NCBI GenBank assembly: GCA_001574975.1
Contig: KQ965733.1
Location: 437,012 to 501,011 of the forward strand
Reading direction: 5' to 3'
From: Gonapodya prolifera JEL478
Lineage: Eukaryota; Monoblepharomycota; Monoblepharidomycetes; Monoblepharidales; Gonapodyaceae
DNA: 64,000 nucleotides
The notes beneath the pieces were generated by a model. That model was not told the DNA's origin. It made no database searches and worked only from the letters and a program-made list of their open reading frames with translations. Below are positions 2,042 to 50,703 of the stretch, in pieces. The translations under genes were made by a program, and so were the position numbers. Within the stretch, counting starts at the first letter, position 1. Every line of letters starts with the position of its first letter.

Positions 2042-5000
2042 TTAGAACAACCCAAACCTCTTCTTGGCATCCCTTTCAAATTCGCCATCTCCTCCATTCC
2101 CCTTTCCGCTGCCCTTGTTCTTGCCGGTCCTTCCGCTAACCACCCGGCTCAGCTTTGCTGACCCAGAGCCCAAACCCGCCCAACTCGCACGATCAACCGC
2201 CGTTGGCGTGGTCCGCCGGGACGTTCGGTCGTCACCGCTGCTTTTGACGGTTGTCTGCGAAACAACGCTCTTGGCCGACGACACTGCAGTGGTTGACGTT
2301 CCCGCCGAGTGCGGAGGGGAGTCGGGTGGGGCAGATGTGGAGTGAACGAGAGCGCCGCCGCGTGGGGGGTGTTTGAGAACTGGCGATCCACCTCGTGAAC
2401 TGTTTGGTGACCAACTAGCTGAAGTTCCTAGGGCGGTAGGAAGCGGCGGCGGCGTGGGGAACGTCATCTGCCCAGAGCTGTTGTGCCACTCAAACGAGCC
2501 ACCCTGCCACACACGTCCCCCGACACTTCCCAAAACCAAACTTCCTCCCCTCGCCAACTTTGCGCCCTCCTGCTCTCCAGCAGCGCCGTCACCCCCCATC
2601 AGCATCCTCTGCAACTCCGCTACATGCTTCACGTCGTGCGAAAACACCGCCGATACAGGCCGCGACGTCCCAAACGCCATCACTGACAGCATTCCTGGCC
2701 CCGAAGTCGGCCTTGCCTGCCCGCCTCCAGATTCCCCAGCTCCACCGATCCCCCTTGCCCGCACACCAGTCGTAGGTGTGGCCGATCGCGCCCTTGTGTC
2801 CACAAACACGAACGGTCTCAACGTTGGCGACGGCGGTATCACCCCTCCCTCGCCTTCGGGCTCAGCAGCGGTCGCGACAGACCCCGCAGACGCCGGGCGG
2901 AACGTGCGCATGGCTTCGAGCGAGGGGATGCGGGAGGGGCGAAACGAGGGACGTAGCGTTTCAAGCGAGGGCACGCGGGCGGGGCGAACGTTTGGCGGGG
3001 TCTCGGTCCTGGAGGGTGCAGAGTGGGGAATGGCGGGGTGAGGGCGGCGGAGTCTTGTTGGGGGTGAGGGGTGGATCGCGTGAGAATCTCTGTGCACTCC
3101 AACCCGCTACGTAACCGAACGTAGCAAAGACACACTCACTTTGAAAGCATGGTCGAAATAATCAGCGACTCGGGCACCACGCCCTCCCTACACGCTTGCT
3201 CCAGCTCGTCCACTTCCATCCGCGCAAACTCCACTGCGGCCCAAAGCGTCTCGAGGGGGACATCCTCTTCATCTTCGGCGGTGTGCTCTGTTCTGTTCGA
3301 GTCAGGGTCCTTGTTTTCCCCGCCGCCGCCGGCCTTCCTCTGCGCAGCCTCACGCTCCCTCACATGCTCTCGCACGATCTCATACTGCGCCACTGCCGGA
3401 ATCGCCACCCCTCCAACGCTACCTTTTGCCCCGCGCGCCAACACGTCGGCCACAAACCGGCCACTCACGCCTCTCACCTGCCCCGCATCCGCCGCCGCCA
3501 ACAGCACCGCGGCGTCCACGACGCGCTCCGTGGGAACACCCAACGTAACAGGGGCGGCATGCGCGGCAGCAAGATCCGCCAAACTTGCAAACTCGAGCTG
3601 CACGGCGCTCCATAGGGACTCGGCCGCGTGGATGGGTACAGGGCGGCCTGTACTGTTGTGCGCGGACAAGAACTGCATCAGCGCTGGCAGGGCGCGGGCT
3701 GGGTCCGCGTTGGGAAGCACGGACGCCATGGCGAGGGCAGGCGCGGTGGCAAGCACGTCGGCCGGCGTGTTGGGGCTCAGGAGGCGCAGCGAAAGGCGCG
3801 CTGTCGCGGCGTGCGCGATGTGAGGCAGGTCCCATGCAATTGCTTCGGTGACCACGCGGTGCAGGGCGGCGGGGCTCGGAGACGGGTTGGTGAGCAGGGA
3901 AGACAGGTGCGAGGTGGCGATGGTGGCGAGGGGCGGGAGGGAGAATGCGGAGGCGAGGCGGATCAGGCCGAGGATCTGGGGTGGTGGGATGGGAAGTGGG
4001 GTGTGATTGTGGTGTGGGTGTGAGTGATGGGTACGTGGGTACATGGGTGTGAGAAAAGCAGTGACGTGTTGCGCTTGTATGCCGCGACAAGCCAAAAGAC
4101 CGGAAAAGAGAGCCGACAAGTATTCCGCACCCTCCGCGCAGAAGTCGCCTCCAACGGTGTCCTCAGTCGGCGCTTCGCGATGAGGCCTCTGCCTCACTTC
4201 GCCATGAGTATTTGATGAGTACATACTCCGCTCCGCGTACGCTCATCCGTCTCGGGCAGAGTCCTCGGTCAGCGCTTCGTGCTTAGGCCTCGAGCTCGCT
4301 GCGCTCGCGCCTCGCGACTCACCTGATCCCACTCGCCCTCCCTCACGACACACCCGCCACCATACGCCCACACAAGGACCTCTCCCACGACCTGGACGAG
4401 GCTGGGGTGCGCGGGGAGCACGGGCAGGGTGAACACGGGCAGGCGGGTCAGGAGGTGCATATCCGGGCGGGGCTGCGAGAACAGGTCGTCGAAGAAGGTG
4501 GAGCGGTGCGAGAGGAGGACGCGGTGGATGGGGACGGCGGTGAGCTGTGGAGGGGAGTGGGAGTGGGAGGTGGGGGTTGGGGTGGGAGGCGGGGATGTGA
4601 GATGAGGAAAAGCAGTTGAGAAATCGGGGCAACGGAGGCCCAATCGCTCATCGCAATGGGCTGGCCAAACCCATGACCACCGCACACCACGCGATTGCGA
4701 GTCGATGAATTTTTCGCTCCATCTCCACATTCTCCAAGTCTGACGAGGCCATAACGGGAAGAAAGGGTGCAAAGGGGACTCTTGTCGCCATATCGCAATG
4801 GGCTGCAAACCCACGTCCCGCATACCGTGCATCCTCGATTCAGTCCGCTTTCCACTCCATGTCCCCATTTTCCCTCTCTCACCAGGCTCGATACAGACTC
4901 TCCAGGCCCAGGCAGCCACCGGGCCGCCCGCCAACGGCCCACGCATCGGCACGCACCTTGCCGTTGGTGTCCCTGACTTTGAGCATCGCGTCGGCGTACT

Positions 5001-5124
5001 TTCCCGCGCGGAGATACGTTGTGAATCCAGCGTCGTGGGCGGCGGGGTGTGCTGCGTGTTTGGCGGGCGGCGGGGAGGACGAGCCCGGGGAGTGTTGCGT
5101 CTGCGAAGCGTCCGAGTGTGCCAT
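2042..5124 (-). CDS. BTB/POZ-domain protein with long disordered C-terminus
   Basis: Four exons join in phase: 5124-4957, 4544-4323, 3975-3140 and 3089-2042, giving about 757 residues. The BTB fold is split over exons 1-3. DAMLKV opens it, then an IHRVLLSHRSTFFDDLF core follows intron 1, and a LVQVVGEVLVWAYGG strand-helix ends exon 2. BTB domains mediate dimerisation and often recruit substrates to Cul3 ligases. Exon 3 (ILGLIRLASAF onward) looks like a helical BACK-like extension. Exon 4 is Ser/Pro/Gly-rich, disordered, and carries two similar RPSFRPSRIPSLE-type repeats. An upstream in-frame ATG at 5187 would add 21 residues; the inner ATG (MAHSDA) is preferred because the extra residues look like leader noise. 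Intron 1 is 412 nt and intron 2 is 347 nt, both far above the local norm, and intron 2 carries the repeat family described below. Confidence 0.8.
3976..4322 (-). repeat. Introner-like repeat inside BTB intron 2
   Basis: This is a whole 347-nt intron. In the sense (minus) direction it holds two related blocks. One, about 4253-4292, reads GAGGCCTAAGCACG then AAGCGCTGACCGAGGACT. A weaker one, about 4142-4190, reads GAGGCCTCATCGCG then AAGCGCCGACTGAGGAC. The same block occurs in introns at 9144-9490, 47791-48040 and, weaker, 49162-49492, always in the sense direction. Confidence 0.65.
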
Positions 5125-5187
5125 GGCTGGACGTGGGGTCTCTGCGGGACGGGAGCGGCCAAGAGCGAGCGGAAAGGTACGCAGCAA

Positions 5188-6635
5188 GGGCGCAGGAGCA
5201 GAGGATGAGCCGGCGGATAATCCTGAGGGACACAGGGGTCGCGAGTGCGTGTGGTGCGCCGCGCGGGATGGCGGATGGCTGCACGCGTGGTCCGGAATCG
5301 CGCGTGAGTCAGCGGTGGATTGGCCTGAAAAACAAAAAGAGATTCTCCGCGCCTGCGTGATGATGACGGCGCTGCAGGGAGCGGGGAATTGGGTGGCCGC
5401 AGGGAAGGGTGCGAGTTTTATCCCGATTTGGACTTATAGCTTATTGGTAGTGCACAGGGAGGGGTTTTGCCGGGGCAGGTGCGTTAAATCGCGCATCTCT
5501 GGCGCCAGAGTTGCAGATATATGTCGCGGTGTCGTTTGGGTGTTGGGAGGGGATGGTTCGTAAGGGGATCTGTCCACAATAGCAGTACGCATCTCCAAAT
5601 GGCGCGTGCTCGCTCCGCTCCGATGTCAGCAACCGCTCGTTGCCATATCCTTTCACACAGATACCACCCACACCGCTCTTACGCAGTGGCAAACAGTAAC
5701 GCGCTGTTCTGACTTTGAACGGGATGATCTATTTACGTAACAGGAGGGACCAATTCGCTGTTCGCCCTGATGCATGTTTCAATCACGTGATTCATGGGCT
5801 TGCACACTCCACCTAATTATCTTTGAACTGTCCGCTGAATCTACATTTTTGCAGTGATCACTGGGTCAGAGTCTCAGAAAGACATGCGGAGCAAGTGAAT
5901 AACGTCTTGTGAATCCCGGTTGTGATTGCACCACATTTCATGTCGCTATTGATATCCCAACGTATCTCAAGAATCCTCGCCACTTATTTTGCGCCTCAGA
6001 TGGCTCGAAATGGCCCGCTATAACTTGGACTTTTCACCAAATGAACATCATTACAGTGCTGGATCCGACGTAATTCAGCATGAGGATGATATTCATTGTT
6101 GGTGGAAAAGCCCATCATTTGGGTCATCAATCGATTAAAAGTCTTCATGCATTTTGCACGGCGGGCCCCACAAAACAAGAGAAAATTGTAACTGTTCATG
6201 GGGCCCGCCGTGGCAAACATATGATGAAGGACTCCTTGATCCGGCAAGTCTGAACTTTCCAGGGACATGAAAAGCTCGTGACGTTCAACCCTTGAGCATA
6301 ACAGGGCAGGATGTGTTGCTGCCCAGCCACCCCTGCGTCGGGTTTGAATAACCAAAATGGGTTCTTCAGTTTGCCGCACGGTTAGCGCCAGCGCCTTTGG
6401 ACCAGAGATCCCTCTACCTTAATGTTGTATGCATTTTGAAGGACAGTCAATGCACATGATAAACGCCTACAAAATTAGGGTAGTGGAATCGCCTCCATTA
6501 TAAATCTTCATCACACGAATCAAACAGCACATGCTCTGTTAGCTCATGACACAATATCACATTTTTCTTATAACAAGCTTGCTCGTTATCGTCTCCAAAA
6601 TTTTGTTTTTGTGATGGTTTGTTCCCTTCTCACAT
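5188..6635. other. 1.4 kb intergenic region with one strong hairpin
   Basis: I find no credible gene here. It separates the 5' end of the BTB gene from the 3' end of the methyltransferase pseudogene. The only structure noted is the inverted repeat at 6152-6217. A 127-codon reverse ORF at 5996-6379 shows no family motif and runs through that hairpin. Confidence 0.55.
6152..6217. repeat. Inverted repeat / hairpin
   Basis: Two arms (about 6152-6170 and 6199-6217) share a perfect 14-bp core, CACGGCGGGCCCCA, and further pairing beyond it, around a loop of 28 nt. The arms are GC-rich in an AT-rich intergenic stretch, so the structure should be stable. It could be a relic of a small inverted-repeat element or a structured RNA; nothing else supports either. 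Confidence 0.7.
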
Positions 6636-7193
6636 TCACCGCTTCACAGCAATGACCCAAAAGAACGCCGCCGCGTCATCCTCCTCAACCGTCTCCCTAA
6701 CGACGATTTTCATACCCGCTCCCTCCAGAGCCTTTGTATACCCATCGTACCCCAAACTGCTCCAAAGGATCCACCCCTTCTCGTCCAACCAGTGCTCCGC
6801 AACCAATCCCTCCATCCCCGGCCCAGCCACAAAGTTGACCAGGATGCATCCGCCACGCTTCAGCCACCGCACGGCTCGCGAAATGACCTCGCGCTGCTCG
6901 TTCTGGGGTAAGTGGTTTACGCTCCACAGCGCTGGCGGCTAGAACCTCAGTTAGGACCGGAACGCCCGCACCGCACCCAAGCTCAACCACGGCCGCTTTC
7001 TTTGCAGCGAACCCGGACGCCGTCGGTTCTGTCGCGGTAAGGCTGGGACAGTGCGTAAAGAGCTTTGCCAGGTACCGATGTTGTAACGTATGGTGCGTGG
7101 CGGTCCATGGGTTGACACGGAAGCGATCGCGTCGTAGGATGCTTTGACGCGCGGCTTGAGATCTGCGGGAGGCGATGACGCATGGAATTCCAT
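6636..7193 (-). pseudogene. Decayed SAM-dependent methyltransferase
   Basis: Pieces of a UbiE-like class I methyltransferase are spread over three frames. The N-terminus (LKPRVKASYDAIA) is followed by a frame change before NPWTATHHTLQHRYLAKL. Motif I is intact (VVELGCGAGVPVLTEVLA). The usual 40-55 residues holding the acidic loop and motifs II-III are then missing. A shifted frame resumes at ALWSVNHLPQNEQ, then WLKRGG, and a normal C-terminus (AEHWLDEKGWILWS) ends in a stop at 6636. The internal deletion removes part of the cofactor pocket, so a working enzyme is unlikely. No splice sites would bridge the gap. An assembly error is possible for the frame changes but not for the missing block. 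Confidence 0.7.
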
Positions 7194-8377
7194 TTCTGAT
7201 GGACCGACAAGGGAAGTGTTGTTGTGAAGGTGTCCTTGTCTCCCGACCCTTCCACAAAACAGGTCTCAAGGAGCGCCGAACTGACCCGGGAACTTTGTCA
7301 GCAAAAACCCATGACGTGACAGCGGCCGGTAGAAAGCATGATCTTTCTGTACACTAGCGCTTGCTTTCCGTCAGCATTGGATCCCTACCCCGCCGTCCTC
7401 GGCACTCGGCACGCGGCAGCTGCCAGGGTGTGCATTTCTTACATAACACGTGATTACAGCCTCATCATAGATATAGGAGCCATCAGTGGCTCAAAACAAA
7501 CTGCTGGATGAGGCGCTCTCTCACGGAGGCGAGCCATTCCGTACCTGGACTCATCGCGGCAATTCATGGAATTTCCAGTGACTCGAGCGCGCACAGTAGA
7601 CCACGCAGACCACGCAAACCACACGACGTAACGTTTTGTGGTGGAGAAGGCGGGGGAGGGGGTGTGTATTATCGTGTTTGGGGTTGTGGTGACCCATGAA
7701 TAAGTGATTCAAAGCGACGCCAAAAGCCGTTTCCCGACTAGCTGTCTTCTCGGGGAAGGTGTGTTTGGTGAGGTGAGCCAAGGACTCAGCTCAGGGTCGG
7801 ACAATTCGGTTGTTTGGCATCGTTCTGGACTTTTCGTTCCTGAATGAGAACGTAACGGTGGCTCGAGGAAGAATGGAATGAGGTTTCTGTGAGCGTGGAT
7901 GCGAGGAGGTGGTGAGTGGGACTTTTGTCACGTTGCATGTAACAGACTGATATGTAATCACATGGCTTGATTGGATACATATTATGCGGCTATTGAATCA
8001 CATGACTGCTCATGACTTTGTATGTTGGATATATTTAGCCAAATATGGGATGGATACACAGGTTTGGTGCTCAGCACACTAACTTGGCCTTGGCTCCGAC
8101 AAACATTCAGCACCAATTCGAGTCAAGCAGGAACATGGGAAGCTTAAGAAGCGAAAAGGAGGACGGGAGGGGAAAGACGAAATGAGGTGCGACGGTATCT
8201 TGGGACGTTGCCTGAACAGGGACACAGAACTCCCGGGACACGCGGGCGGGACGCATTTGGCGAATTCGGGGGACTTGAACGAGCCCACACCGGAGAGCGG
8301 ACGCGAGCGAGCGGACACGAATTGAATCTGAGCAGAAGAGGCGATACCCGGGAAGACGGCGTGGCGCAGACACGGAC
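7194..8377. other. Intergenic region upstream of the ankyrin gene
   Basis: About 1.2 kb with no supported gene. Short reverse ORFs at 7551-7781 and 7786-7980 have no recognisable motif. The last 300 bases probably hold the promoter and 5' UTR of the ankyrin gene. Confidence 0.5.
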
Positions 8378-11300
8378 ATGAGCGCGCAGGTGCAGGTGCA
8401 GGAGCGGGAGCGCAGAAGCGAGGGCAGTGGCGACAGCGCGGGGTCCGCGAGGGCGAGCGCGGGGACGGGGCAGGCGAGGGGAGCGGCCAGCGAGGAGAAA
8501 CCGCGGGCGAAGTCGCGCGAGGATGCGACGGATGACGGGACGGGACGGCGGCAGCGGCATTCGGTTCCCTCAGCGACGCACGCGGCACAGGCAGCGCAGG
8601 CGCCCACGCTCGCACGCCTCAGCAGCCCGCACGCTGCGCCCCCGCCGCCATCGCCCACACTGCGCTCCGAGGCGTCCGCAGCACATCCATACGCACACCA
8701 CGCGCACTCGCTCTCGCTGTCCTCGCAGTCCTCGCTCTCCACAACAGCCCCGTCGCCCTCTCTCCCGCGTCCGCTGTCCACGCACTCGATCGACTCACAC
8801 GCGCTGCTCTCGCCAAACCACCTGCTGATCCTCGCAGCAGAGTCGCACAACCTGGCAGCACTTCTCGCCGCGCTCGCAAAGGGCGCCAACCCAAACGCCA
8901 GAAAGAGAGTCCAGCTCACTGCGACAGTGTCGCACCCGAAACGGACCCCTCTCCTTCCCCAACTCGCGTCTCGCCATGCCGCGTCCTTCTTCTCCCGCTC
9001 GTCGGCGTCGGCCCACGACACACACCACGCGCAGCAGCAGCTGTCGTCTGAAGTCCTCGTCGACGCACTCCCAGCAGAGAGCGCACTCGCGCTCGCTATA
9101 AGGTCAAAGAACGTCGACGTCATATCGACCTTGCTCGACCACGGTGCGTCTTTGCGGGAAGGCGAGCGAGGTCTGGAGTAGCGCGGAGGGCCGAGCACCG
9201 AGGCTTAAGCGCGAAGCGCTGCCCGATGACTCTATCGCGGAGCGAGCCCGAGGCCTAGGCGCGATAGCGCCGACCGAGGAGTCTGCTGGGTGCAAATCAC
9301 CCGTGGATCGGAATAGTACTCCTGCCGGAGGCGAATACCCCACGGAGCACCTATTCTCGCCGCAGGCAATTCCCCCGCGGAGCGGAACAGCACGTGCGGA
9401 TAGTACCACTCCTGAAGCGCGGTGTCCTTCGACTGCAAAACATCCCACACACTTGCTCACCACTCACCCCCACCCCCTTTCCCCTCGTAGGCGCCGACCC
9501 CACGCTCCCCATCTCATGGCAGGTGCCGTCCTCCCACCCTCTCTGGACGCCCACGCTGTGGCAAAGCTCGCGCTGGTCACCCCCCGACACGCTCCTATTC
9601 CCCTCGGCGCTGTCCTTCTCCCTCGCGCGGGGCCATGTACCCTTCAACCTCCCCGGAGCCCGGGTCGCCGTGACCTCACCGCGAAATCCGGCCCAATGCC
9701 GTGTCGTGCACTCGCTGGAACCGGACCCCGCCGTCGTCCGCGCGATCCTGGCCCGGTCGGCGCACTCGGCGGACGCGGCGCGCGCGGCGGTCAAGGTGCT
9801 TAGTGACCGCGAAGTGAGGGACTTGGCGCCCGCGATGGCCTCGCTTGTTGCGGACGCCACGGCGGTGCTGAGAAGGGACAGAGGGGCTGGGTTCGGACTT
9901 GGTGGTGCAGGAGTAGGAGCAGGCGGTGCAGCAGCAGCGGAGTCGGCACGCGCGAATGACCGTATTGCTCGTGCGGAACGCGTCGCGGTCGCGCAGGCGG
10001 CCAGGGTGCGCGAGCTTGAATGGGAGGTCGCGGATCTGCTTCAAGTCATTGCGTCTTCCGCTTCCAGTTCTGGGCCTGGTGCTGATGTCGGTTCTGGTGC
10101 TGGTAGTGGTGGCGGTGCGGGTATGGCTGGAGCGAGTACGATTGGATCCGGTACAAGCGCCAGTACGTCAACCGCAACCACATCCACCGAGCCCGACCGA
10201 CGCGACAGCGTCCAATCCGCCCCGCCACCACGCACAGCCAAAACACCTCCTGTCCCCTCCACTCTTTCCTCCACGACTCCCACATCCCCCGCAACCCCAA
10301 CCGCCACCCGCCCACCGGCCACATCCCGCGCCCGCACCACTCCGCGCCCGCGGTCGCTGGCGCTCGAGTTCATGCGCGTCGGGTGGGGTGAGGACTTTTC
10401 TGCTTCTGCTTCGGTCTCTACCGCCGCCGGGGTGACGGTGGTGGGAAGAGCGGGATCCAAGAAGACCCAGAGGAGTGCACGGAGTGTGGAGAGGAGTGTG
10501 GGTGTGGGTGGAGAAAGAGGTGAGCTTTCGCGTTGTGTGTGGCGTGAGAGGGTGTGTGACTGACGTTTTGTTGTACACTGTGTTGTTTTGTGGAATGACC
10601 TTGCAGGGTTCGCAAGTGTCCGTGAGCGGTGAGTTCCCCTTTCTTCCCATCCCGCACACCACACCGAACTAACCACCGCACTCCAACCGCAACCGCGTCC
10701 ACCCAAAGCCCTACGCCCTCGCAAGACCACGACCCAATAACACCTCCCGCCTCGTCACCTTCACCAACCTCGTCCCGCTCCTCGTCGCCGACCTCGGCGT
10801 CTTCCTCCTCCGAGGGAACTCCGCCAAGACAGAACCCAACCCCGCCGTCGCCTAATGACCCGCACACGAATGCAAAGGGAGCAGGAGCGGGAGCACCAAA
10901 CGGAACCGGAAACGGCACCCCCCCCATGCTCCGCCGCTCGCCCTACTCTATCCCGCTCACGTACCGCCACTCGCGCACCGGGTCGGACTCGTCGGCATTC
11001 CGCGCGCCCGTGCCGCTCTCCAACACAACGGGGACACACTCGAGCTCGGCATCCTCGTCGCGGCGAAACTCGGTGATCCTCCCCGCGCGCCCGGCCAGTA
11101 TCGCGGTGCTTGCCGACGGGAGCGTGGTGGAGTGGGGTAGTACCCCCGCCATTGTGCTGGAGGAGAGTTCTGACGTGGGCGAGGAAGGGGGTGGGTGGGG
11201 TGCGGGGACAGTCGCGGCGGCGAGGGAGAGGGAAAGGGCAGAGAGGGAAAAGGAAAGGGAGCGGGAGAGGGAGAGGGAGAGGGAGAAGGAACGGGAACGG

Positions 11301-11744
11301 GAACGAGTACGAGAACGGGAGCAGGAGCAGGACAAAGACGCACCGCAGACCGAAGACGACTCCGACCCCCGCAAAGGCGGAGAAGTCGCGCGGGCTGACC
11401 CGTCTGATACGGGCGAGTCCGACAACGACCCCTCTGATTGGGCAGAGTGGGCCCCGCGCGTGCTGTCCCAGGTTGGGGGACTCGTTGGGGCGACACCAGA
11501 GACCGACACCAGGGGGCGGGAGGGCGTCGACAGCGGTGGTGGTGCAGTGGTGGCGGGGGCGGGGGCGGAAATGGGAGTGGGAGTCGGAGCGCGTACAGGA
11601 ACGGCTCAAAGAAAGATCAGGCAGCGACAGCCCCGCGGCCGGAGCGAGGGCGGCGAGAAGAAGCGGTATTCGCGGTCGCTCATGGAGGAGATTGAGGGGT
11701 TCACTCAGGTTTTTAAACGGTTGGGTAGCGGGAAGAAGGAGTGA
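8378..11744 (+). CDS. Ankyrin-repeat protein with large disordered, low-complexity tail
   Basis: Exons 8378-9143, 9491-10519, 10607-10628 and 10709-11744 keep frame and give about 950 residues. The N-terminal 120 residues are Ser/Ala-rich. Ankyrin-like helices follow (HLLILAAESHNLAALLAAL, then LALAIRSKNVDVISTLLDHG). Intron 1 splits the finger GA-DPTLPISWQV, a typical ankyrin turn. The second half is Ser/Pro-rich with a charged run of alternating Arg/Glu (about 11220-11330). It ends in a basic helix SLMEEIEGFTQVFKRL. The third exon is only 22 nt; a single intron from 10520 to about 10727 would also keep frame and is the alternative. Ankyrin repeats bind other proteins; the target cannot be read from sequence. 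Intron 1 (347 nt) carries the introner-like repeat. Confidence 0.75.
9144..9490 (+). repeat. Introner-like repeat inside ankyrin-gene intron 1
   Basis: A 347-nt intron with a GTGCGT donor and CTCGTAG acceptor. About 9199-9290 holds two tandem blocks in sense direction: GAGGCTTAAGCGCG then AAGCGCTGCCCGATGACTCT, and GAGGCCTAGGCGCG then ATAGCGCCGACCGAGGAGTC. These match the blocks in the BTB and VWA8 introns. Confidence 0.65.
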
Positions 11745-12706
11745 TCGGAGGGAGTTTGGATGTTGGACGTTGAGTTTTAGGGGGTTGGGTGGAGTGAAGT
11801 GATCAAGTTTTAGAGACAAATTTTTGGAAGTAATGGACAGTCGGGGGACTTTGGGACCGAAGGGCGCCAGGTCGAATGACGATTACGAGGCGACGGCAGA
11901 CGAAAAACAAGACGGAATGACAGGACAAGGACGTTTTTTTCTCCACACATTTTGCAAGTTCAACACATCACCACCCTTTTTCTCACGCCGTTTTTACCAA
12001 TCCACCATTCCCAAACGGCAGCCGGGGCGCCCTTCTCACGGGCTTCTGGTCACGGTTCTTCTCTCTACCCTACACGTTGGATTGCTTCTTTCCCTTTCTT
12101 CTAAATTTTCATTGTCCCCTTCAGGGCTTTGTTTGTTTCTTTTGCTTCCATGGTGTTTTTGTCGCCACGTGCTGGTGCAGTGCCCAGCAGGAGGTTGATG
12201 CGATATCCTCATCTTTCACACCCGTCACAAAACGAAATGGATTCCTTGGCGAGAATATGTAGTGCAAGTTGCGAGGCACGTAGTGTCTTAATTGTAGTGT
12301 TAGACTCGTCGCTTATAATCCGGGCGGCATCTTTTCTTGCGTCAAAAAGACTTTTCTTTTAACAGTCCAAGATGTTGGGGTCGGCCTAAAGGGACGTCAC
12401 GGAAGTGGCTTCACCTCGAAGAATCCCTGGGATGGCTTGTTATCGTGTCTGGGCAGATCTTGGTGTGTTCGTTGTCGATTTTTCCATACGATCTTAAAGT
12501 TCCAACAAAATCGCACTGTTGGAACCTAGTATCGCGAACGGGTATCACCTTGAAATAACTCTTTGACGACAAAGGGACGCGGGGGTTGCGCTTTAACCGT
12601 GGCTCGGCTTTCCAGGGTGTCGCAGGCAGGCTTTGAACTCATCAAATCTCACGTGAGTAACACCCCAAGGCTTTCCTCCACCCGCGCGATCGCCACATTG
12701 CGAACG
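11745..12706. other. Intergenic region between ankyrin and globin-like genes
   Basis: Nearly 1 kb, T-rich on the plus strand from about 11930 to 12360, with no supported gene. An in-frame ATG at 12563 could extend the globin-like protein by 48 residues, but the homologous start in the second copy argues for 12707. Confidence 0.55.
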
Positions 12707-14169
12707 ATGGCATCCAATCCTCCAGTAGAATCACTTCCGCCGCTCCCAGAATTGACCACACTGGGGTCGTCACTTTCGCCCGACATGATAACTGAACTAA
12801 TCGCACTTCGAGCCGAGGTGGCATTGCTGAGGGCAGAGAATGAAAAGCTCAGAGCGCATCAAGCATCTCAGACGATTCTGCCCATCAGCATACCTGTACC
12901 TGACACCGCGAATGCTCCCGTTGCTTCCGACACCAAAGGCGAAATCACCCTGACGCCTCCCAAACAAGACACTCATTCCGGCGAAGTTCAGACACTCAGA
13001 AATCAAGTCCATACGCTCCAGAAAGCGCACGAATTGCTCGCCGAGCGGGTAAAACTTCTCGAGACATGCGACTTCGCCAAGAAAGAAACCAACGTTGTTG
13101 CATCACCGGTCAGCCTATCAATTTCACCAGAAGAAGCACCAACGTGCCCATTCGTGCCCCAGACTGAGCGAAAGAACTCCGCAGGCGGCTTCTCCTTCAC
13201 GGACATGTTGGCGGAGGGTGGCACAGTATCTGCATTCAGCCCAGCGGCGAAAGAAGGTGAAGAGGACGATACAATTGGTGACGGTTCACTATCCCACAAA
13301 TCGGTGGTCAATGAAACATTCGGGTCATACTGTCCGGATGAGAAACAGAGGCGAAAGTCCGCCTTATCTTCGAAGCTTTCGTCCAGTTCTACAACCTCTT
13401 CCACGCTCAAGGCTGTAATTTCATACGACTGGAACACTTTGGTCGCAATGAAAACGGGTCCTTGGGCGGATATCACTGTGGATGTGTCCAAACAACAGCT
13501 CGAAACAGTCATAGCCAGCTGGAACGCCATAAAGAACGGTGGCCTTGTGGCCAAGCTGGTAAGAAACAAACATCACCCTGTTCTTCTTTGCTATGGGCTC
13601 AACAAACTCTTTACTGTGATCAAGGGCACTTCTGCGATGGAGTGTCTCTTCTCACAGAACCCAGGTGAGCTTTCTGTTCCCACTCGAGTGCACTCCATAA
13701 AGTTCTAACACATACCCGAAGGATACAAGCGACTCTATGCGGATCCATCTGCTTTCCCCCTCTCCAACATTGTTGAACGTATCGTTTCGCACTCCCACCG
13801 CTCCTTTGGCAAAAAACAACGCCAGGTAGTTGCAGACATCCTTCTTCTTGGATGGCGACATATGCATCAAATGGGAGGACTGGGCCTCAGCGACTTCAAG
13901 TGCATGGTGGTGGCAGTGTAAGTAAGATCGGGCATCCAATGAACGATGCGACATCTCACCGTGCACTGCGCTGCAGTACCTACGGAATTAGCGAAATGCG
14001 AAGCCTCACTCACGATGAAAAGAAGAAGGAAATCTTGTCATGGCAAGTGCTCTTAAGGGAGATCTCTGTGATAATGGCGCGAGGAGGGGAGATGTCGGCG
14101 GAAGATCTTGCTGATGTGCAAAAGTTCCAGAAAGGAAATGGAGACGAAAAGCAATGTAAAGTTATGTAA
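12707..14169 (+). CDS. Globin-like protein with coiled-coil N-terminus and CaaX box (copy 1)
   Basis: Exons 12707-13558, 13625-13664, 13722-13917 and 13977-14169 give 426 residues. Residues about 20-45 form a Leu/Glu coiled coil (ALRAEVALLRAENEKLRAH). A Ser/Thr/Glu-rich linker follows. The C-terminal 150 residues look like a globin fold: a helix-A type W (LETVIASWNAIK), a LFSQNPGYKRLY corner with the globin C2 Pro, an F-helix pattern LGWRHMHQMGG whose first His (about residue 344) would be the proximal haem ligand, and a final helix ILSWQVLLREISVIM. The protein ends KQCKVM. Such a CaaX box is normally farnesylated, so membrane attachment is predicted. The globin assignment is by pattern only. 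A paralogue with the same exon plan follows directly. Confidence 0.65.
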
Positions 14170-14518
14170 AGTTAAATTGACCACTTGATCAGTACATACA
14201 AACCTAGTCGACCATCACCTCAGACACTATGTTGTACGCAACTCATCAGGTTTGGTAAGCGTTTGCAGATTGTCGTGAAAAGCATGAATAAGGCGGGTCC
14301 CTGCATTAATTTATTCAGAACTGGTTGTACTTTATTCAGATTTGTTGCATCGGAATTGGTTGTACTGGAGGGGTTTTCTGGTTGGCTGCCTTCAGAGCGA
14401 AGACCTCCAGCGAGGATGCACGCGGGATATTCAGGAGATTCTTCGCCCTTGTTCAACATTGTCAGAGCAGCTTCCGTTTCGACAAAGAGCTCCCTCGCAA
14501 CCGAGATCGCTCAAATCA
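14170..14518. other. Spacer between the two globin-like genes
   Basis: About 350 bases with no supported gene. It must hold the terminator of copy 1 and promoter of copy 2. A short direct repeat of TGGTTGTACT lies near 14322 and 14356. Confidence 0.6.
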
Positions 14519-15920: not shown

Positions 15921-16205
15921 GATGTTAGCAGGTCGTATCTGCAAATTGTCTGGGTTGAATGTACAGTATTGTTCTGCATAATAAACCATCCAGCAGCGCG
16001 AACCGTCAGCCCATTCAATGTTAAAAAGTAAAGTGTGGTCAGACGTTCTCTTGGAAGAAAAAGACTTCACCGTGCCCCAAGAAATGCCAAAATTAATTGT
16101 TGTTGAGGTGCTCCTGTGGAGCTTTGGCCACTTGGCTTTGCATCCCACCACATTTGTGACACTAGTTCAGAAGGCCACGAAGCGCCACCGTCGAAACCCC
16201 CCCCG

Positions 16206-27580: not shown

Positions 27581-27791
27581 CTACTCCTAGGTGGTGAGGA
27601 GGGGGTAATCGGAGACAGAAAAAATTCCATTTAACCACAGCCACTTCCGTATTAGTGACACGCTCCTATGCTATATGTACGTAATTGCAATCATGCATTA
27701 TAGGCACCCACGCACGAAAGTAGAGGATGCATTCCGTGTTGCATAAAAAGAATCGTCCCCAAAAAACGACATGGTCCATTAAAGTAATCAC

Positions 27792-38336: not shown

Positions 38337-38568
38337 TGAAGGAGGAATCTGTGTGGAACGTTTCTAGGCTTGTGAAATAGCAATTTCGTTTTTGTACATT
38401 CGCACTTAATGTATAGTTTTTGTGTCCGCCTGCCTTTGCGAACCCTTGTTTATGGCTTCTAAACGTGCAGGTCGCCCACGACTGGCTCTACAAGGAACAA
38501 AACCCAATTACGTCTTTAATCTTAATTCCTTTCGATAACCTCTCTTCTATTTTGTACATTTAAAATAC

Positions 38569-41956
<3,388 letters not shown>

Positions 41957-42110
41957 TTGGCTTTGGGAGAGGGGAAAACGGGGCCCGTGTTATCTCTTCC
42001 CATCGACCGCAGTCAGACCACAGGGACCATGGCCACAGGACCCGTCAGGGGAAAGAGAAAGTACTCTGGTAAAAGTATTAAATCTAGTCTGATGCAATCT
42101 AGTAGTTCAT

Positions 42111-45100
42111 CTAGGACGAGGCAGCAATGGTGCTGGCAAAAATCTCGCGACTGAAAAGAGTACATAGTTGAGTGGCGGACATGAGCGATTTCTGTGTGAA
42201 GAATGCTCAACTCACATAATGCGAGGGATATCAGAACCTTGCATCGCAATGAAGGCACGACCAGGTGGAAGTTCGGCACTTAGTCGTTGAGCTTCGTCTT
42301 CCAAGGTGCCTGTAGGTGAAATCGCAAGATGCACACCAGGAATTGACCGGTTGATACTCATGACAGCATTCCAAGAAACATATCGCCATCTACCTACCAA
42401 TAAAGAGAGCGACACAAGTGACCTTTGAGTCACTCGTCAACACTTTTCCAAAATCTTTTGGCGCGATCCCATATCGCCTCAAGTTGGCGTCGCTCAGCAC
42501 AATCACCACCCAATCGTCAGCGTCCTCTTGCGAGATATCCTGGATCGCCTGCTTCGTCGCCGGAAGCGTGTTGTCCCCACTGCCCGTGAACTGCGCGTGG
42601 GAAAGCATGGCGCGGACGACTTTGAGGCGATCCATCTCGTTCTGCGGAGGTCGCTCGGCATCAACGAGGGGGATGTTGTCGCTGTCGCCAGAGTGGCCAG
42701 AAATGTCGTACTTATACTTGTGGCCAAGGGTTTGCAGTGCCTCCATGATCTTCAAGGCGCCAAGTCAGTTAATCAGAAATGGGTGTAAATGGCAAATGAG
42801 GTCGCACAACTCACCATCACCGCAGTCTCAAGACTCCGACTCAGTCGCCCGTCAACTCCGTTGAAGCGATACATACTGTCACACATCAGTTAATCGTCTC
42901 GTCACCAAGTGTAACGCAGTTGCACAAAGACGATTGGAATTACCTTCCACTTAAATCAAACACGAATTTCAGTCTCTTGGGCTTCTTTTGAGGTGCCCCG
43001 TATTCCGGTTTCTCCTCTCCGCGACGCTTGTATATTGCGTGCTCACCGGTCAAACCTTCATTTAGTGGTTTAATGACATGCGTTAGTGTCCTGTCCGTGC
43101 CACAACCTCAACCACTATTTACCATCAATGAGTTTCCGATCATCGAGCTCGCCCTCTGTTTGGTTTTTGAGCCAAACTCGCTCGCGCTGTTTCGCCTCGA
43201 CACCCTCCAAAACGACACGAAGTTGCTGCACTTCGTTTCGGACACTGTCATACAGGTCCTTGTACTGAGCGGCCTCTTGACCCGACATGTTGATTTCCTG
43301 CAGCCGCTTCATCAAACCGTCCCTGGCGTTGTCCAAAGCCGCGGATCGGATTTCGTCGGAAACTTGATTTTTGAGCTGCTCGGCAATTTGGAAAACGGTT
43401 TCCCCTCCCTTGTTGAGGCGATGGGGTCCGGATTTTCCACCCTGTCCGGGAGACGAAGTTCCGCCGCCGCCACCCTGAAACTGGTTGCCACCCTTGTGCT
43501 CTTCATCTCCGTCGTCGACACCTTCGTGGTCTGGGAGCTCGATCTTGAGGTCGGAGTGAAGATATCACGTTAGGCGCCAGAGTTTGTCATTCGACATCAA
43601 GAGCACTCACAGCAGGTTCAGGCCCGTCATATTCAAGGACAAGTTGTGGTTTCTCTTGGAGAGGTTTGTTGCCTTCCAAAGCATTTGGACCTATCCGAAG
43701 CTCGCGTTTTGGGACACTGTGAGAAAAGAAAGGTCAATTAATACACACACAACAACAACAAAAAAAAAAACGATGGACAGGGTTGTGAACATACTCGTGC
43801 TTATCCAATATACGCATCAGCAGCTCATGGTATTCTTTCCGAGTAACATCGAAATCAAACACGTTGCGCAGAACCGAGTCAAGGGCCTCATCCGGGAATT
43901 TCTGCAGATCGCAATTGTAACGTCTCGGTTAATCTACATTAGAACATCGACTTACCCGCATATGTTTCACCACATTGATAAGCTCTCTCAATGAGAACGG
44001 ATAGGACACCAGTCCGTCATCGAAAGCCTGTCGGAGTTCAGCAAACACTCCAACCAGACGACGGAGTCTTCCTTTCAGGATTTCCGGAGCCATTTGCGCT
44101 AGAAGCTCGAGCTCCGACTCCTCATCCGGATTGTCGACGGCATGCGTAGCGAATACATCACCAATCTGACTGTAGAAGTCATTCCCCAAGAAAGGATATC
44201 CGGGCCTGTTTGCAAGCAGAATCAATCTGAAGTCCTAGACAATCAAAAACGGTTCATATCGCGGTTCTCTGTCATAGGCTTTCTCGTTACCGTACCTTGT
44301 GCACAATGATGTCATTCTCCCGAACAGCGCCAGTTCCAGCAGCTGACAGAGGTCGGATTTTGCGCCCATCACTGAGGTTCATTTCACCATTCTCCGCCAA
44401 AGATTTCAGAACAGATGTGATGTACACTGGGGCTTTGTCGGCTTCATCGACAACCAACACTCGGCCAGTTTTCACGGCACGGACCAAGGGAGAATCCTTG
44501 TAGAATATGACACCGTTTTCAACCGTGGGCTGTACCATCAGAGCTTGAACTGTTGTATCACTTGAAACCAGAGATGGCGGTACTTTGTGGTATATTCGTG
44601 CAGAGTGAAGAAAAATCGCGCACATACCGGTGAAGCTGAATGTATTCGCGAGGCCGGTTGAGCAACTCCAGGAACCGGTCAGTTAACCTGTTCTTCCCGA
44701 CTCCTTGGTTTCCAATGAGCAATAAATGTTCTCCACCGTTAAAATCAATCGCCATCTCTCGCATGACAAGGGTATGAAGATCGTTATCGAAGAAGGTGGT
44801 TGGCACGCGCGGGACCAGTGCAGATCCTTCGGGGTCCTCTGGCGGGATCACATAGATAGGCACAGAAACATCTCCGATATGAAGCCGGTTCTGCGAGGAG
44901 TAAGGCTTCCCGATGTCCTTATGCGTGAATATCGAGTCAACTTTTGAACTTCTGCACTTTCTTGCATGCGTCAATCCGAACCACATACCTTCCTCAACAC
45001 TTTCTCCTTGATGTTAACTTCAGCTAGCAAACCTTCGAGGGTTTGCTTTGCCGGCAGCGGCAAGAAGGGACCCAAGCACGCTCTGTTGATAGCTCTGTAA

Positions 45101-48100
45101 AGATCCTCGTCCTCGTGGTCCGTCAGTCGCCGACCGATACGGATGAGCTGACGTGTGGAAAGAGCCGCGGACTTGGAGAGGCTGGCTCCTTGGCCTTCGT
45201 CATCTCCAATGAATCGAAGACGTTGAGCGAAATCGAACAGCTGAGACATGGGTCCCTGGGGACAGCGTGTGACCGCTACCGAAAGTATGATGTCAGTCTG
45301 TCGCATTGGAATAATGAGCAACAAATGGACTTCTCACAAGCAACGATTTCCTCCTCTTCCAAACGCTCCATCTGGCCCCAGACCACGAAATGGAACATGT
45401 TGACGACTTCTTCCGTAAGCCAGGGAAGGTTTTCGTTGAGTGTTCCTGTGCTGTTCGGGTTGAGAGGCGTGGACGCCATCGCGACGAGGCGAAAGGATGG
45501 GTGGATGGGAATGACATTTCGGACCGTGATGAGCTCGTGCGGTGTCAATCCGGTTTTGGTCTGGATCGCTTGGAAGTTGGCCAAAGACGTGAGCCAGCTA
45601 CCGTCTGGGAGAGGGATTTCACTGCGATGATGACACCATCGATGAATAAACACATTACGCCTTCAATGTAAAAACAGTTAACGCGACTCACCGATCCTGC
45701 GTGAGCCTCTGCAAGCTCGCGAGAGTACCTCCCTCGAGCATCTCAATTCCGTCCAGGACACACAGCTTCCCCTCAATAGCGCTGGTGACAAGGTTCGAGT
45801 TCTCCCAGTACGTGCTCCCGTCACGGCGCGTCCCACGCCGTTGCAGCAGATCGCGCGCGGTCATTTCTTTGTAACAGTGGACGGTTTCCGTGTACCCCGC
45901 GTCGTAGCCAAGCATCGCCGCGAACCGCCTGCACCAAATTGCACCTCAGTGTGAGCTCGGACGTCATGACACTCACGTTTCAGGGGCACATACCTCAACG
46001 CAGTCGACTTCCCAGACCCTCGTGGCCCCACAACGCAAAAGTCCATTCCCAGCGCATGCGCCTGCGCCATCCGCGTCACCGCGTCCCGGAAGCGGGGCAT
46101 ATCGACAAACAACTTTCCATCCCCGCCTCGCGCAATGCTCGAAAACCCGTCGGCTGTAGAGGTCGGCACAAGAGCGGGCGCCGGTCCGGCGGGAACCAGC
46201 ACCTCGAGCGGTAGCGTGCTGCGATCCCCGGAATTCCGCGCTCGGAAGGTAAGCACCACCTTTGGCCCGGCAACGGTCGCGCCCCCGCGCGCAGCGAGCC
46301 TCATATCATCCGCGCGGCGCACGTGGACAACCTCGTACGCGCTCCGCCGGGCGTTGCGGCGCATCGAGGCCACAAAGTGGTCAAAGTCCTTGCGCACCGC
46401 GGCAGCCTCCGCGGCGGCTTTGGCGTTCTTGGCAGCCGCTTGCATCCGCCGCACGGATTCCAGCCCGGCGGGTTCGACGACGTCCGAAGGTGATGCTTGC
46501 GCGGCAGTGGCGGGGGGTGTGGGCGCCACGGAGGGTCTGCGGGCGGCTTTAGGCGGGGCGGCGACGGCGGGGATCATTTTGAATTGGGTCAAGTATCCGA
46601 TCCAGGCGTCGGTTTGGTCGCGGTTCATTCCGCCCGAAAGGCCCGGGTAGGGGAATATGCGCTCGATGAGAGAGCTGGAGTACCCGAACGTGCATTCTTC
46701 GGGGAACATTGTCGTGATTGCGAGCAGTGTGGGAAGGGAGATTTGAGGGAACGGAGGGAGGAGGTTGGAGGTGGACCCCGAGGCGGATATGGGGTCGTCT
46801 GTTTGTTGATGGAAATGGGGGTCTAGAGCTGGGTAGAGGGAGGGGGGTTAGGAGTACGACGCACTCACCAATCTTTGCCGAGAACCGAATTGTCTCCATC
46901 AGATACACCACATCCCGCATCACATTCTTGACACTGTCCGCATTCCCCGGGACGCTCCACTTCGCCTTCACCACAAGCGACTGCGCCAGCCTGCTCCCTC
47001 CGATACCCCACCCGTCGACCCACCGGACCTGGAACCGGGACCGGAAGGGCGGGTCAAGCGGGTTCCCGCGGTACGGCGGGACGGGGATCCCGAGCGCGAT
47101 GACCCGGAAGTCTGGCGAAACGCGGACGAGTTTCCACGCGTCGAGCTCGGCGCGGGTCTTGCCGGATTGGAGCAGGTTGTCGTAGAATGAGGGGTTGACG
47201 AGCTGCGGGAGTGCGGCGATGAGACGGGGCGGGGTGGGGCGGGTTGGTAAGGACGCGAGGGGATGGCAGGCAGGGTATGCAAGGGTACAACTCAACGCAC
47301 ATGTCGTCCGTCCTCGAGATTAACCTCCCTGTTCTCAAGCAGGTTGTTGAGCACGGGAAGCACGTTGAGTTCGCACTTCTCGACGCCTTCGAGGATCAGC
47401 ACGCGGCCCTCGATGGCCGCCGTGACAGCCGCGGCGTCGCACCATTCGGCCTTGAGTCGGATTCCGCCAAGGCCCGAGGATGCGTCCGAGGAGGGGGAGG
47501 AGCGCTCGTCGCGTGTTATTTCACGGCGCTGTTTGAGGTCGGACTCAGCCTAGGTGGTGAGGGCGTAAAAGAATGTGTTCAGGGGTTGGGAAGGAATTCA
47601 TTGGGGGAATGGGTCATGTCACATGTGATTGTTATAGAGTGATGGAACAAGTCACATGAAAATCACTCGGCAACGTCACAAGCGACAGAAACGTACCGAA
47701 GTGTCTCTGTGAAGGACAATGTACTCGTGCTCCCGCTGTAGCAGCGCGCAGAATGTCAGCGCGAGATGGCGACGAAGCGGTCCTGGTCCCCTGTGGTCGA
47801 TGTCGAGTTGAGCGTGGTTGGTCATGGTTCTTTCTCCCCTCCATCCCCCCCACACGACGTGCTTAGGCCTCGGGTTCGCTCCGTGAGAGTATATACCGCT
47901 TCGCGAATCACTCGCCTCCGGCGGACACACTCGCTTCGCTCGTGTCCTCGGTCAGCGTAATCGCGGTCAGGCCTTCGGGCTCGTCGGACGGCCTTGCAGG
48001 TCTCCGTCGGTCTCGAACCCCACTACCCCCGAATACGCACCCGAGCAAAAAAATGTCCTGACCGAGCATATCCTTTTTGATCATCCATTGGAGAGACTCG

Positions 48101-48454
48101 AGAATGTCCTGCTTCTCGAGGTCGACCGTGACTTCTACGGGCACCTTTTCCGGCCATCGCGGCACGAGATTGATCTGCGCCGAAACGCTTCCGATTCGCA
48201 GTGTGGTGGTCGTGAGCTGGGTCTTGGAAGCCAGGTCTTTCTCCTCTGTAATAAGAATTGCGAGGAGTGAAGATGGAGTGACATCCGAGAGTGCAGCGCA
48301 GTGCAGACTCGGAAGCGACGGGCAACGCACCTCCGGCCCGCTTGTGCGTGGCGGGATTGAGGGTGGACGAGATGTGCTGCAGGCGTCTCACCGCGGATTG
48401 CGACTGCGCGGAGTTTGGTGCTGCATCGCCGGTTGGCGTCTTCCGAGGAGCCAT
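42111..48454 (-). CDS. VWA8: VWA8: AAA+ ATPase with C-terminal von Willebrand A domain
   Basis: A 20-exon gene of 1589 residues; every phase agrees. Exons: 48454-48331, 48245-48041, 47790-47697, 47543-47301, 47202-46869, 46828-45994, 45928-45692, 45621-45338, 45275-44989, 44917-44628, 44560-44296, 44234-43956, 43901-43795, 43716-43611, 43543-43123, 43055-42944, 42875-42815, 42749-42398, 42309-42216 and 42150-42111. Three AAA-type modules are visible: the first has the degenerate GGPGPLRRHLAL loop typical of VWA8, the second GPRGSGKST, the third GNQGVGKNRL with NRPREYIQLHR and LVVDEADKAP. The C-terminal VWA domain has the MIDAS start FDLSGSMYRFN and YKYDISGHSGDSD. VWA8 is a mitochondrial or peroxisomal ATPase with a midasin-like plan. 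The first 40 residues are basic, Ser-rich and could be a targeting signal. Intron 2 carries an introner-like repeat. Confidence 0.92.
47791..48040 (-). repeat. Introner-like repeat inside VWA8 intron 2
   Basis: A 250-nt intron. In the sense (minus) direction it holds GGCCTGACCGCG then ATTACGCTGACCGAGGACAC, and further on GATTCGCGAAGCGGTATA and CCCGAGGCCTAAGCACG. The last string shares 15 identical bases with the block in BTB intron 2. Confidence 0.65.
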
Positions 48455-48674
48455 GAGACTTGACGCGAGTGTTTCTGGAGACGCGCCGGAGGAGGAGAGG
48501 AGAGAGCGTTCACACGGTCGCGGATGTTGCAGGGATTCGTTGAGCAGCCGATGGAGTTGTGGCTTCGGAGAGCAATTTGATCGGAAGGACGACCCGAAAT
48601 TATGTCGGTGGGGCCACAGCTGGTAACTCTATCCGACTGTCACATATATTCCAACACACACGCACACACGCGCC
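48455..48674. promoter_or_regulatory. Short divergent promoter between VWA8 and TRAPPC13
   Basis: Only 220 bp separate the two start codons, so both promoters and 5' UTRs must fit here. This is inferred from layout; I see no clear TATA box. Confidence 0.5.
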
Positions 48675-50703
48675 ATGGCCGACGCGCAGCCCCCGCAACA
48701 GCCGCACCCGCTGCACCTCAAGGTCATGCGCCTGTCCGCGCCCGCGTTCGTGCCATCCGCACCTATCCACGTCGACCCATCCAAGCGCGATCCCGTGTCG
48801 ATGGCCATTCGCGACCTGCTCTACTCAGACCCCCTCACGCTCAGAGACTCCCCCGCCCTCGCTCCCCCGCCCGACGCACCCGACGCCTCCCCTCCACCCC
48901 ATCCTCCACAACCCATGCTCAGCGACCTCGCAATCTCGGGCCTCCTCTCCCTCCCCACATCCTTTGGCTCAATATACCTCGGAGAGACGTTCGCCTCATA
49001 CATCTCAATCAACAACGAGTCCCTCGCAACCGTCCAGGCCGTCGGCGTCAAGGTCGAGATGCAGACTTCGGCCCACAGGTTTACATTGGTCGATACAACG
49101 GGAGGGATGCCTTCCACCACGGCCAATTCGTCGACTGTGTCGCTGCAGGGCGTGGAGCAAGGTGTGTATCGAGTCTGCGTAGCGGAGTGAGACGAACCGA
49201 TAGCCTAGGCGAATTGGTAAGCTCGAAGACCGACGAGTCTGACGGAGTCCGTTTGACTGCCGCGGAGCCGTATTTGTCGTCATGCAACATGGGCAGAGAG
49301 GCGAATGACATCACCGAAGCGGGACTCGTCTTCGCGGAGTGACCGTGTTGACACAGGGAGACGAGGGAGACGCGATTTCGTCCAAGCTGAACAGATGGGT
49401 TCGATGTACACCTACCGCCATCGTCTCACATCCATTTTCCACCTGCCTCTGCCCCCTGCCCTGTCCCCACTCAGCCACAACAACAACCCCAGCCTCCCTC
49501 GTCGACCTCGCGCCGCACCGCAGCTCGGAGCACATCGTGCGGCACGAGATCAAAGAGCTGGGTACGCATATCCTCGTATGCTCCGTGCACTACTCCTCTC
49601 CTTCCTCGGGGACCGGGACCGGCCCCACCGTCCTCGCCGCCACCCCACCAAACCCGCTCACCAACACCACACCCACACCCGCTCCCTCCCGCCGCACATT
49701 CCGCAAATTCTACAAATTCCAAGTCTCGAACCCCCTCTCGGTCCGCACAAAGGTCAACTCGCTCTCCGACGGCCGAGTGTTTCTGGAAGCACAAGTCCAC
49801 AACGCCGCGTCCGCCGCCATGTTTATCGAACGCATGCGGTTCGAGCCCGGGAATGGGTTCGCTTACGTCGATTTGAACTATGTCAATGTCGCGCCGGAAA
49901 CGGGAAGGGCAAAGGTGGGCCCGGGGGGCGTGCGCGTCCCGGCGAGCGCGGAGGGTGCTGAAGGGAAGGACGCGGATGGTGCGCTGGGCGGAGAAGATAA
50001 GGAAACAGGACGGCTTGTGGTGGCGGGGGAGAAGAGCGCGGGTGGCGTTGCGGACCGACTCATGTGGGACCTCTCCCACCCCACACCTGCCCCCACCTCC
50101 TCCGCACCCACCCGCGTCGAATCCACATTCGGCCCCACGAACCTCCTCCACCCGACCGACGTGCGGCAGTACCTGTACATCCTGCACCCGCGCCACCCCT
50201 CCGACCCGCTCACGCTCACGACGGCCACCCTGGGCAAGCTCGACATCCAATGGCGCGGACCCATGGGCGAGGTCGGCCGCCTGCAGACGTCCCAGCTAAG
50301 CCGCAAAGTGCCCCCTCTGGAAACCCTCGACGTGCTCCCCGGTGCGATATCGCCGGGGGACGTCGTACCCCTGGAACGCCCCTTCCGGATCACCGTGCGG
50401 ATTAGGAACAACGACCCCGCAGACGCCGTCCGCGTCGTGCTGCAGGCCTCGGGCCGGAAAGCCATGGGCAGCGTGCTCCTGCGCGGGCCCAGCACGTACC
50501 ATGTCGGCGACGTACCCCCCCGCGGCGGGGTGCGCGAGGTGCAGCTCGAGTACGTGCCCGTCGTGGCGGGTCTGCATAGAGTTGGCGGGTTCAGAGTCGT
50601 GGATTTGATTTCGGGCGCTGCGAGGGAGGTCGAGGGCGTCGCCGAGGTGTTTGTGGTGGATGATGGCGCGGGGGAGGAGGGTGTGTTGGCTGCGGGGGGA
50701 TAA
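48675..50703 (+). CDS. TRAPPC13: TRAPP complex subunit 13 (TRAPPC13)
   Basis: Two exons (48675-49161 and 49493-50703) sum to 566 codons including stop, giving 565 residues. LHLKVMRLSAPAF opens the family domain, followed after a Pro-rich insert by LSLPTSFGSIYLGETFASYI and a VKVEMQTS strand. Exon 2 starts at LVDLAPHRSSEHIVRHEIKE and carries LGTHILVCSVHYS, FRKFYKFQV and DGRVFLEAQVHN, all family blocks. The C-terminal half is Ig-like beta structure (RPFRITVRIRNNDP). TRAPPC13 is a TRAPPIII subunit linked to ER-Golgi traffic and autophagy. The protein is longer than the animal form because of Pro/Ala/Gly-rich inserts in both exons. The 331-nt intron contains the fourth introner-like repeat. Confidence 0.88.
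49162..49492 (+). repeat. Introner-like repeat inside TRAPPC13 intron (diverged)
   Basis: A 331-nt intron. About 49194-49250 reads GATAGCCTAGGCGAATTGG and then GACCGACGAGTCTGACGG in the sense direction, a diverged form of the GCCTAGGCGCG...GACCGAGGAGTCTG block in the ankyrin-gene intron. This is the weakest of the four matches. Confidence 0.45.

Follow-up and report, generated by a model that had tools for sequence, protein, structure and literature searches.

The closest described relatives of the sequences studied here are of two kinds. Introners and introner-like elements, known from Micromonas, Dothideomycetes and other organisms, are described (PMC9860276, PMC4457414) as related sequences that lie in sense in the introns of unrelated genes and are presumably spliced out with the host gene. 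According to PMC9860276, the introner search demands similarity near both splice boundaries in order to exclude secondary insertion into existing introns, and target-site duplications are present in many introner families and absent from the ascomycete ones; in PMC4457414, fungal introner-like elements are near-identical introns gained where other species have none. The second kind comprises mitochondrial GC clusters and double-hairpin elements such as the yeast GC42, described in PMC4478555 as short palindromic modules of high GC content that undergo merging, shuffling and turnover; most GC clusters are placed there in mitochondrial intergenic regions. Here, we analyze a repeat family in a stretch of 64,000 nt from Gonapodya prolifera JEL478 (GenBank assembly GCA_001574975.1, contig KQ965733.1, our C3, positions 437,012 to 501,011; hereafter the window) and in the rest of the genome. 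It probably represents non-autonomous hairpin arrays that entered already existing introns, in most cases just behind the 5′ splice site, by a mode of spreading that we infer below.

The original prediction, made from the window alone, described a block shared by four introns of unrelated genes, always in the direction of transcription and not seen in the intergenic stretches that were read. A profile search of the whole 64 kb (E ≤ 0.05) bore this out, as all 7 matches were in sense and inside the introns of the BTB (2 matches), ankyrin (3), VWA8 (1) and TRAPPC13 (1) genes. The profile was built from sampled copies and the window's own stronger matches, so the latter are not independent. In the BTB gene, the minus-strand intron at 3976–4322, whose spliced frame is open across the junction, contains two element units on the same strand (4219–4291, E = 3.8e-13, and 4116–4189, E = 2.6e-11) and a 33-nt core present twice, with 0 and 6 mismatches. 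The plus-strand ankyrin intron at 9144–9490, also with an open spliced frame, carries one unit at 9250–9321 (E = 3.9e-12) and two partial ones at 9200–9237 (E = 3.8e-4) and 9322–9353 (E = 0.011), all on the plus strand; comparison of the cores finds the block twice. In the minus-strand VWA8 intron (47791–48040; unit at 47877–47974 on the same strand, E = 3.2e-14) the block is split into separated halves, and the plus-strand TRAPPC13 intron (49162–49492) has a single weak, degenerate match (49219–49277, plus strand, E = 0.034) and is the sole one among 45 element introns that received no coverage in the self-comparison described below. As for the predicted borders, the gene model, which was partly trained on the window, recovered those of the BTB and ankyrin introns and the 5′ border of the VWA8 one. 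At the VWA8 3′ border the model disagrees, while the predicted position fits the reading frame, and in TRAPPC13, whose domains were recognized in the downstream exon, it favours an acceptor at 49474 over 49492.

The repeats of this family are short, non-coding and modular, and string together very small hairpins whose loops, on the sense strand of the gene, are C(GNA)G or C(GNNA)G. Behind one of several leaders, units of about 80 nt join a larger hairpin (GAGGCCTAAGCGC-loop-GCGCTGACCGAGG) to smaller ones. Within 11.9 kb of element sequence, we counted 109 C(GNA)G-loop stems of at least 4 pairs, against 2.6 ± 1.5 in 30 dinucleotide shuffles, and a single copy of the opposite-strand form C(TNC)G. 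Tetraloops numbered 16 for C(GNNA)G, against 2.9 in shuffles, and 1 for C(TNNC)G. Loops of the C(GNA)G type are unusually stable in single-stranded DNA. A tRNA or Rfam origin was rejected, since nothing supporting it was seen in the loci tested: Rfam gave no match at the gathering threshold in the window and, in 7 loci, two matches that fall outside the element (E = 0.86 and 0.93), and no tRNA-like part was found in the 7 loci scanned. In the openly licensed literature, as represented by listings and the starts of abstracts, no description of a C(GNA)G hairpin-array family was found.

Genome-wide (47.6 Mb in 207 contigs), a 30-nt core pattern with at most 3 mismatches was observed in 177 copies (87 forward and 90 reverse) and its reversed control in none, so the repeat is more than chance. 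We sampled 3 kb around each of 40 loci chosen among the matches listed of these 177 places, namely 20 of the 21 zero-mismatch places (the remaining one lies in the window) and 20 chosen others (3 with one mismatch and 17 with two). Gene structures came from a purpose-written small gene finder; since it was trained on the sequences that it annotates, exon borders are not independent evidence. A first version, which called far too many introns, was discarded in favour of a re-costed one. The automatic calls placed 35 of the 40 loci in sense introns, 1 in antisense and 4 between genes. By hand, the gene at the antisense case (L011) was recognized as Spt4, encoded on the opposite strand (Pfam E = 3.9e-23), an intergenic one (L017) was assigned to a sense coding intron from its reading frames, without a domain match, and L025 gained a 57-nt exon that the model had missed. 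In the final assignment, 37 loci lie in sense introns, none in antisense, and 3 are unplaced (L020, L021 and the main array of L012, whose second, weak match falls in a sense intron). One weak antisense match (E = 0.0026) beside five sense matches at L009 was not counted as a locus. Pfam domains such as Aminotran_3, NGP1NT, eIF-3_zeta, Spt4, Isy1 and adh_short were recognized in most spliced peptides of two sets of 10 (8 in the first and 9 in the second), the two misses in the first being the wrong L011 model and L009. The host genes look nuclear, judging by the domain matches of Spt4, eIF3d and Nog2. The apparently intergenic copy at L020 (contig C123) is bordered by an imperfect direct repeat some 70 nt long, noticed by eye.

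The core pattern had no part in a second scan, which covered 124 kb (the window and six arbitrary 10-kb pieces, some of them with few or no gene calls). It yielded 12 matches at E ≤ 0.05, of which 11 lie in six introns, all in sense, and 1, a weak one (E = 0.0026), is intergenic. The gene model divides these 124 kb into 29.5 kb of intron, 36.7 kb of exon and 57.8 kb of intergenic sequence; the intron share is probably overstated because the model merged neighbouring genes. By simple scaling to the whole genome, about 2,300 introns would carry an element (Poisson range 840 to 5,000). As far as these samples go, the predicted restriction of the repeat to introns and to the sense strand is supported.

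Within introns, the arrays sit close to the donor, most of them beginning no more than about 30 nt behind the 5′ splice site. The leader GAGGTCTGGAGTG has 91 exact copies in the genome (control 6), and 38 of them are preceded on the same strand by a GTGAGT at most 30 nt away (none in the control); the leader then starts 4–30 nt after it, with a median of 10 nt. A second leader, GAGCGACGGAGGCC, occurs 28 times, against 2 in its control, and is preceded in the same way in 10 cases, against none. For the two leaders together, 48 of 119 copies follow a GTGAGT in this way, independently of any gene model, where about 0.9 would be expected by chance with equal base frequencies. When the element introns were compared with each other, similarity among copies started at a median of 8.5 nt from the 5′ splice site, a value somewhat flattered by donor letters common to all introns, and stopped 76.5 nt before the 3′ splice site (44 of 45 introns with coverage). 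The coverage was computed from plus/plus matches (4649, the 52 plus/minus ones being omitted) between loci, leaving out the L010/L040 pair. The residue of the element introns has a median of 93.5 nt, against 79 nt in 61 element-free introns, a set limited to introns of at most 160 nt, which lowers its median. A block near the 5′ end and a 3′ residue of ordinary size indicate, as the usual arrangement, an ordinary intron that has received the block near its start.

Comparison of paralogs addresses the relative age of intron and element. We scored 49 of 83, 30 of 233 and 44 of 44 candidates in the individual searches, so paralogs may be missed, and for several of the searched introns no junction-spanning paralog was present among the candidates scored. 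Fifteen element introns, paralogous ones being counted once, had at least one paralog spanning the place. In 6 of these 15, the corresponding position of a paralog is occupied by an intron in which no element was detected. The short-chain dehydrogenase-like (SDR) gene L016 has an intron of 373 nt, against 63 nt in L042 and 54 nt in L041; the latter, a tandem paralog (C62:166300-167900), has an in-frame stop and frame changes and looks like a pseudogene that kept the short intron. Intron A of the thiolase gene L036 measures 320 nt, against 69, 91 and 73 nt in L043, L044 and L045. The intron of L025 (334 nt) corresponds to introns of 70, 61, 67 and 64 nt in L052, L053, L054 and L055, and that of L032 (217 nt) to one of 84 nt in L051, while a further paralog, L050, carries the element. 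In the window itself, the VWA8 intron of 250 nt has an element-free counterpart of 66 nt in L066. The sixth case, the aminotransferase L013 (503 nt, against 213 nt in L049), aligns with its paralog, 91% identical in part of the upstream exon, with a single insert of about 300 nt directly behind GTGAGTG. The native donor is kept as well: thiolase intron A and L043 share GTGCGTG, and L025 and L052 share GTACGT. Since, at each of these six loci, a paralog has the intron but not the element, the intron most likely came first.

A further 7 of the 15 give no information on the order, because the intron is common to close paralogs and one or more of these have the element too (two introns of L010/L040, L014/L063, L018/L062, L019/L064, L033/L065 and thiolase intron B, where L044 and L045 carry the element and none was detected in the 178-nt intron of L043). 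Where two paralogous introns both have the element, one can have gained or lost modules relative to the other: the modules differ clearly within L010/L040, L014/L063 and L018/L062, and small indels and substitutions make up most of the differences between L019 and L064. At the 5′ end of the L063 element, a long G-run leads into a stretch of N, which may be an assembly gap. The remaining 2 of the 15, in the BTB gene and the carboxypeptidase gene L035, have only distant, intronless paralogs, so that creation of the intron is possible there. The BTB-like family is sizeable (L067–L071 and members on further contigs).

Several observations weigh against insertion of the arrays into older introns. 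The BTB intron is absent from 5 of 5 examined distant paralogs (33–37% identity), among 13 spanning matches listed, and the L035 intron from its single distant paralog (L072, 35% identity; 1 of 1). Thiolase introns A and B are likewise absent from the distant L046 and L047, and the SDR intron, judging by match rows alone, from several distant paralogs (31–41% identity). These absences suggest that some element introns are not ancient, and at any single locus an element that came first and was then cleanly lost is possible. As to placement, 3 of the 40 loci lie outside any recognized intron, similarity begins more than 31 nt from the 5′ site in 4 of 44 introns (two of these models may be merged introns) and ends at most 30 nt from the 3′ site in another count of 4 of 44, and the leader of the hand-corrected L017 lies 166 nt behind the donor; that of L011 lies 41 nt behind it. 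Whole elements are no more stable than dinucleotide shuffles (median z of −0.14 for RNA and −0.10 for DNA), so strong global RNA folding was rejected. Finally, mobility is deduced from presence and absence between paralogs, because neither an autonomous partner nor fixed ends nor a target-site duplication was found. The thiolase paralog L046 (contig C33), which has neither intron A nor B, carries an element unit elsewhere in the gene region (146–197).

Insertion of hairpin arrays into existing introns would proceed as follows. A copy would enter, or be copied into, an existing intron just behind its native donor and would be spliced out together with the host intron. The array may then grow and shrink by duplication, shuffling and decay of modules. 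Its single orientation and 5′-proximal placement would result partly from selection, as an antisense copy offers more sites resembling a 3′ splice site and there is not much space upstream of the branch point in a short intron. Transcription may contribute as well, if copies are inserted, or templates switched, on the non-template strand while it proceeds.

If selection were the whole explanation, the arrays could be an ordinary non-autonomous transposon that inserts anywhere, with antisense, exonic and 3′-proximal copies subsequently removed. The elements contain 19 acceptor-like sites in antisense against 4 in sense, which gives a selective reason for the single orientation, and 4 donor-like sites in antisense against 1 in sense. 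The limited space near the branch point of short introns fits this explanation too, as does a leader that is only moderately biased towards the donor (at most 10 nt away in 22 of 38 copies, p = 0.004 against a uniform distribution over 0–30 nt). Such a transposon, however, should leave common and randomly oriented intergenic copies, whereas the 57.8 kb of intergenic sequence contained 1 weak match of the 12 and just 3 of the 40 pattern loci were unplaced. The acceptor-like sites do not explain this intergenic scarcity, which would leave room for targeting or for copying between introns. Miniature inverted-repeat transposable elements (MITEs) and elements like short interspersed nuclear elements (SINEs) are short, non-coding, dispersed and present or absent between paralogs, as are the arrays. 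The latter differ in lacking a target-site duplication signal on the donor side and, in the 7 loci, a tRNA-like part, and in having few intergenic copies in the sample; additionally, their ends are too variable for the terminal repeats of a MITE to be defined. An insertion of this indiscriminate kind is conceivable, yet we regard it as doubtful.

Copying between introns could take the form of ectopic template switching or gene conversion, for instance at hairpins and G-runs of the exposed non-template strand, without a transposase or reverse transcriptase. In favour of this, neither fixed ends nor target-site duplications were found, modules turn over between paralogs, and the hairpins are strand-specific. 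G-runs of at least 5 in the first 60 nt occur in 16 of 45 element introns and in 4 of 61 element-free ones. At L013, a second donor-like GTAAGTGATG stands directly after the insert and is close to the GTGAGTGATG that opens the intron of the element-free paralog; it is possibly a duplicated donor site and would agree with such copying. On the other hand, the spacers between donor and leader (31 of 38 were long enough for comparison) are not clearly common to the copies, with 4-mers shared by 6 of 465 pairs against 5 of 780 in element-free introns, which does not support copying anchored at the donor. On balance, spreading by such copying seems rather unlikely.

The original prediction took the pattern as the hallmark of introners, in which the element would carry or generate both splice sites, each insertion would make a new intron and the hairpin array would form its body. 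The first part of this stands: related sequences lie in sense in the introns of many unrelated genes (37 of 40 loci), their similarity extends to the 5′ splice boundary, and GTGAGT is the donor in 27 of 45 element introns against 18 of 61 element-free ones. The introns missing from the distant BTB and L035 paralogs would fit as well. The creation of introns, by contrast, is not supported where it can best be tested. The 6 introns that exist without the element in paralogs, if the order of the paralogs is right, already point to an intron that preceded it; 7 are uninformative, and the BTB and L035 ones are compatible with creation. Similarity mostly reaches close to one splice boundary only, coming within 30 nt of the 3′ site in just 4 of 44 introns. 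A donor carried by the element is not supported either, despite the more frequent GTGAGT, because spacers are not clearly shared among copies and unusual donors are common to element introns and their element-free paralogs. A search for target-site duplications at the donor, a check that had also been suggested, gave no signal: across 45 introns, of which one row was malformed, the score was 6.29, and 900 mismatched controls scored 6.19; the test is weak for old copies. We therefore consider true introners improbable.

Arrays kept by selection after chance insertion, as RNA structures useful to the host in splicing or in intronic RNA function, are very improbable. In their favour, the loop type is strand-specific, the sense fold is more stable than the antisense one in 32 (RNA) and 34 (DNA) of 41 elements and one main stem covaries weakly (0.8625 paired against 0.825 ± 0.011 in 1000 shuffles with a maximum of 0.869; 32 distinct copies), but global folding scores are near zero, no Rfam family matched, copies are gained, lost and decayed between paralogs, and several paralogs do without the element.

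Among the described systems, the arrays most resemble mitochondrial GC clusters, as they too are built of GC-rich palindromic modules subject to merging and shuffling, but the mitochondrial location does not apply here. Unlike GC clusters, they have C(GNA)G loops and occupy spliceosomal introns of nuclear genes, close to the donor and always facing one way in the sampled introns, and they differ from introners in a similarity mostly confined to the 5′ side and in introns without the element in paralogs at six loci. We tentatively propose a nuclear, mobile family of C(GNA)G mini-hairpin arrays delivered specifically to existing introns, directly behind the 5′ splice site and in sense only, by a mechanism tied to transcription or splicing (through the exposed non-template strand or the nascent intron), so that introns would grow from their 5′ end.

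Two further observations concern the surrounding sequence. Near the start of the window, positions 64–211 and 1277–1425 contain two direct-repeat pairs about 1.2 kb apart (75 nt at 81% and 62 nt at 76% identity). In addition, a closely similar second copy of many genes lies on a different contig (L010/L040, L013/L049, L014/L063, L018/L062, L019/L064, L032/L050, L033/L065 and L036/L043), with aligned pieces roughly 70–91% identical in nucleotides, which suggests that the genome is a hybrid, contains diverged haplotypes or went through an old whole-genome duplication.

It is worth stressing that sense-only, intron-bound repeats in unrelated genes are easily mistaken for a sign of intron-creating elements; before such repeats are called introners, they need to be tested against paralogs or relatives, and their 3′ boundary has to be examined. 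In G. prolifera, the near-duplicate gene pairs make both the presence or absence of the arrays and the turnover of their modules directly measurable. The arrays may be a nuclear counterpart of the shuffling hairpin elements of mitochondria, and their placement points to a possible route of insertion or copying tied to the 5′ splice site. If it is true, targeted delivery would be a way of building long introns that is distinct from introners.

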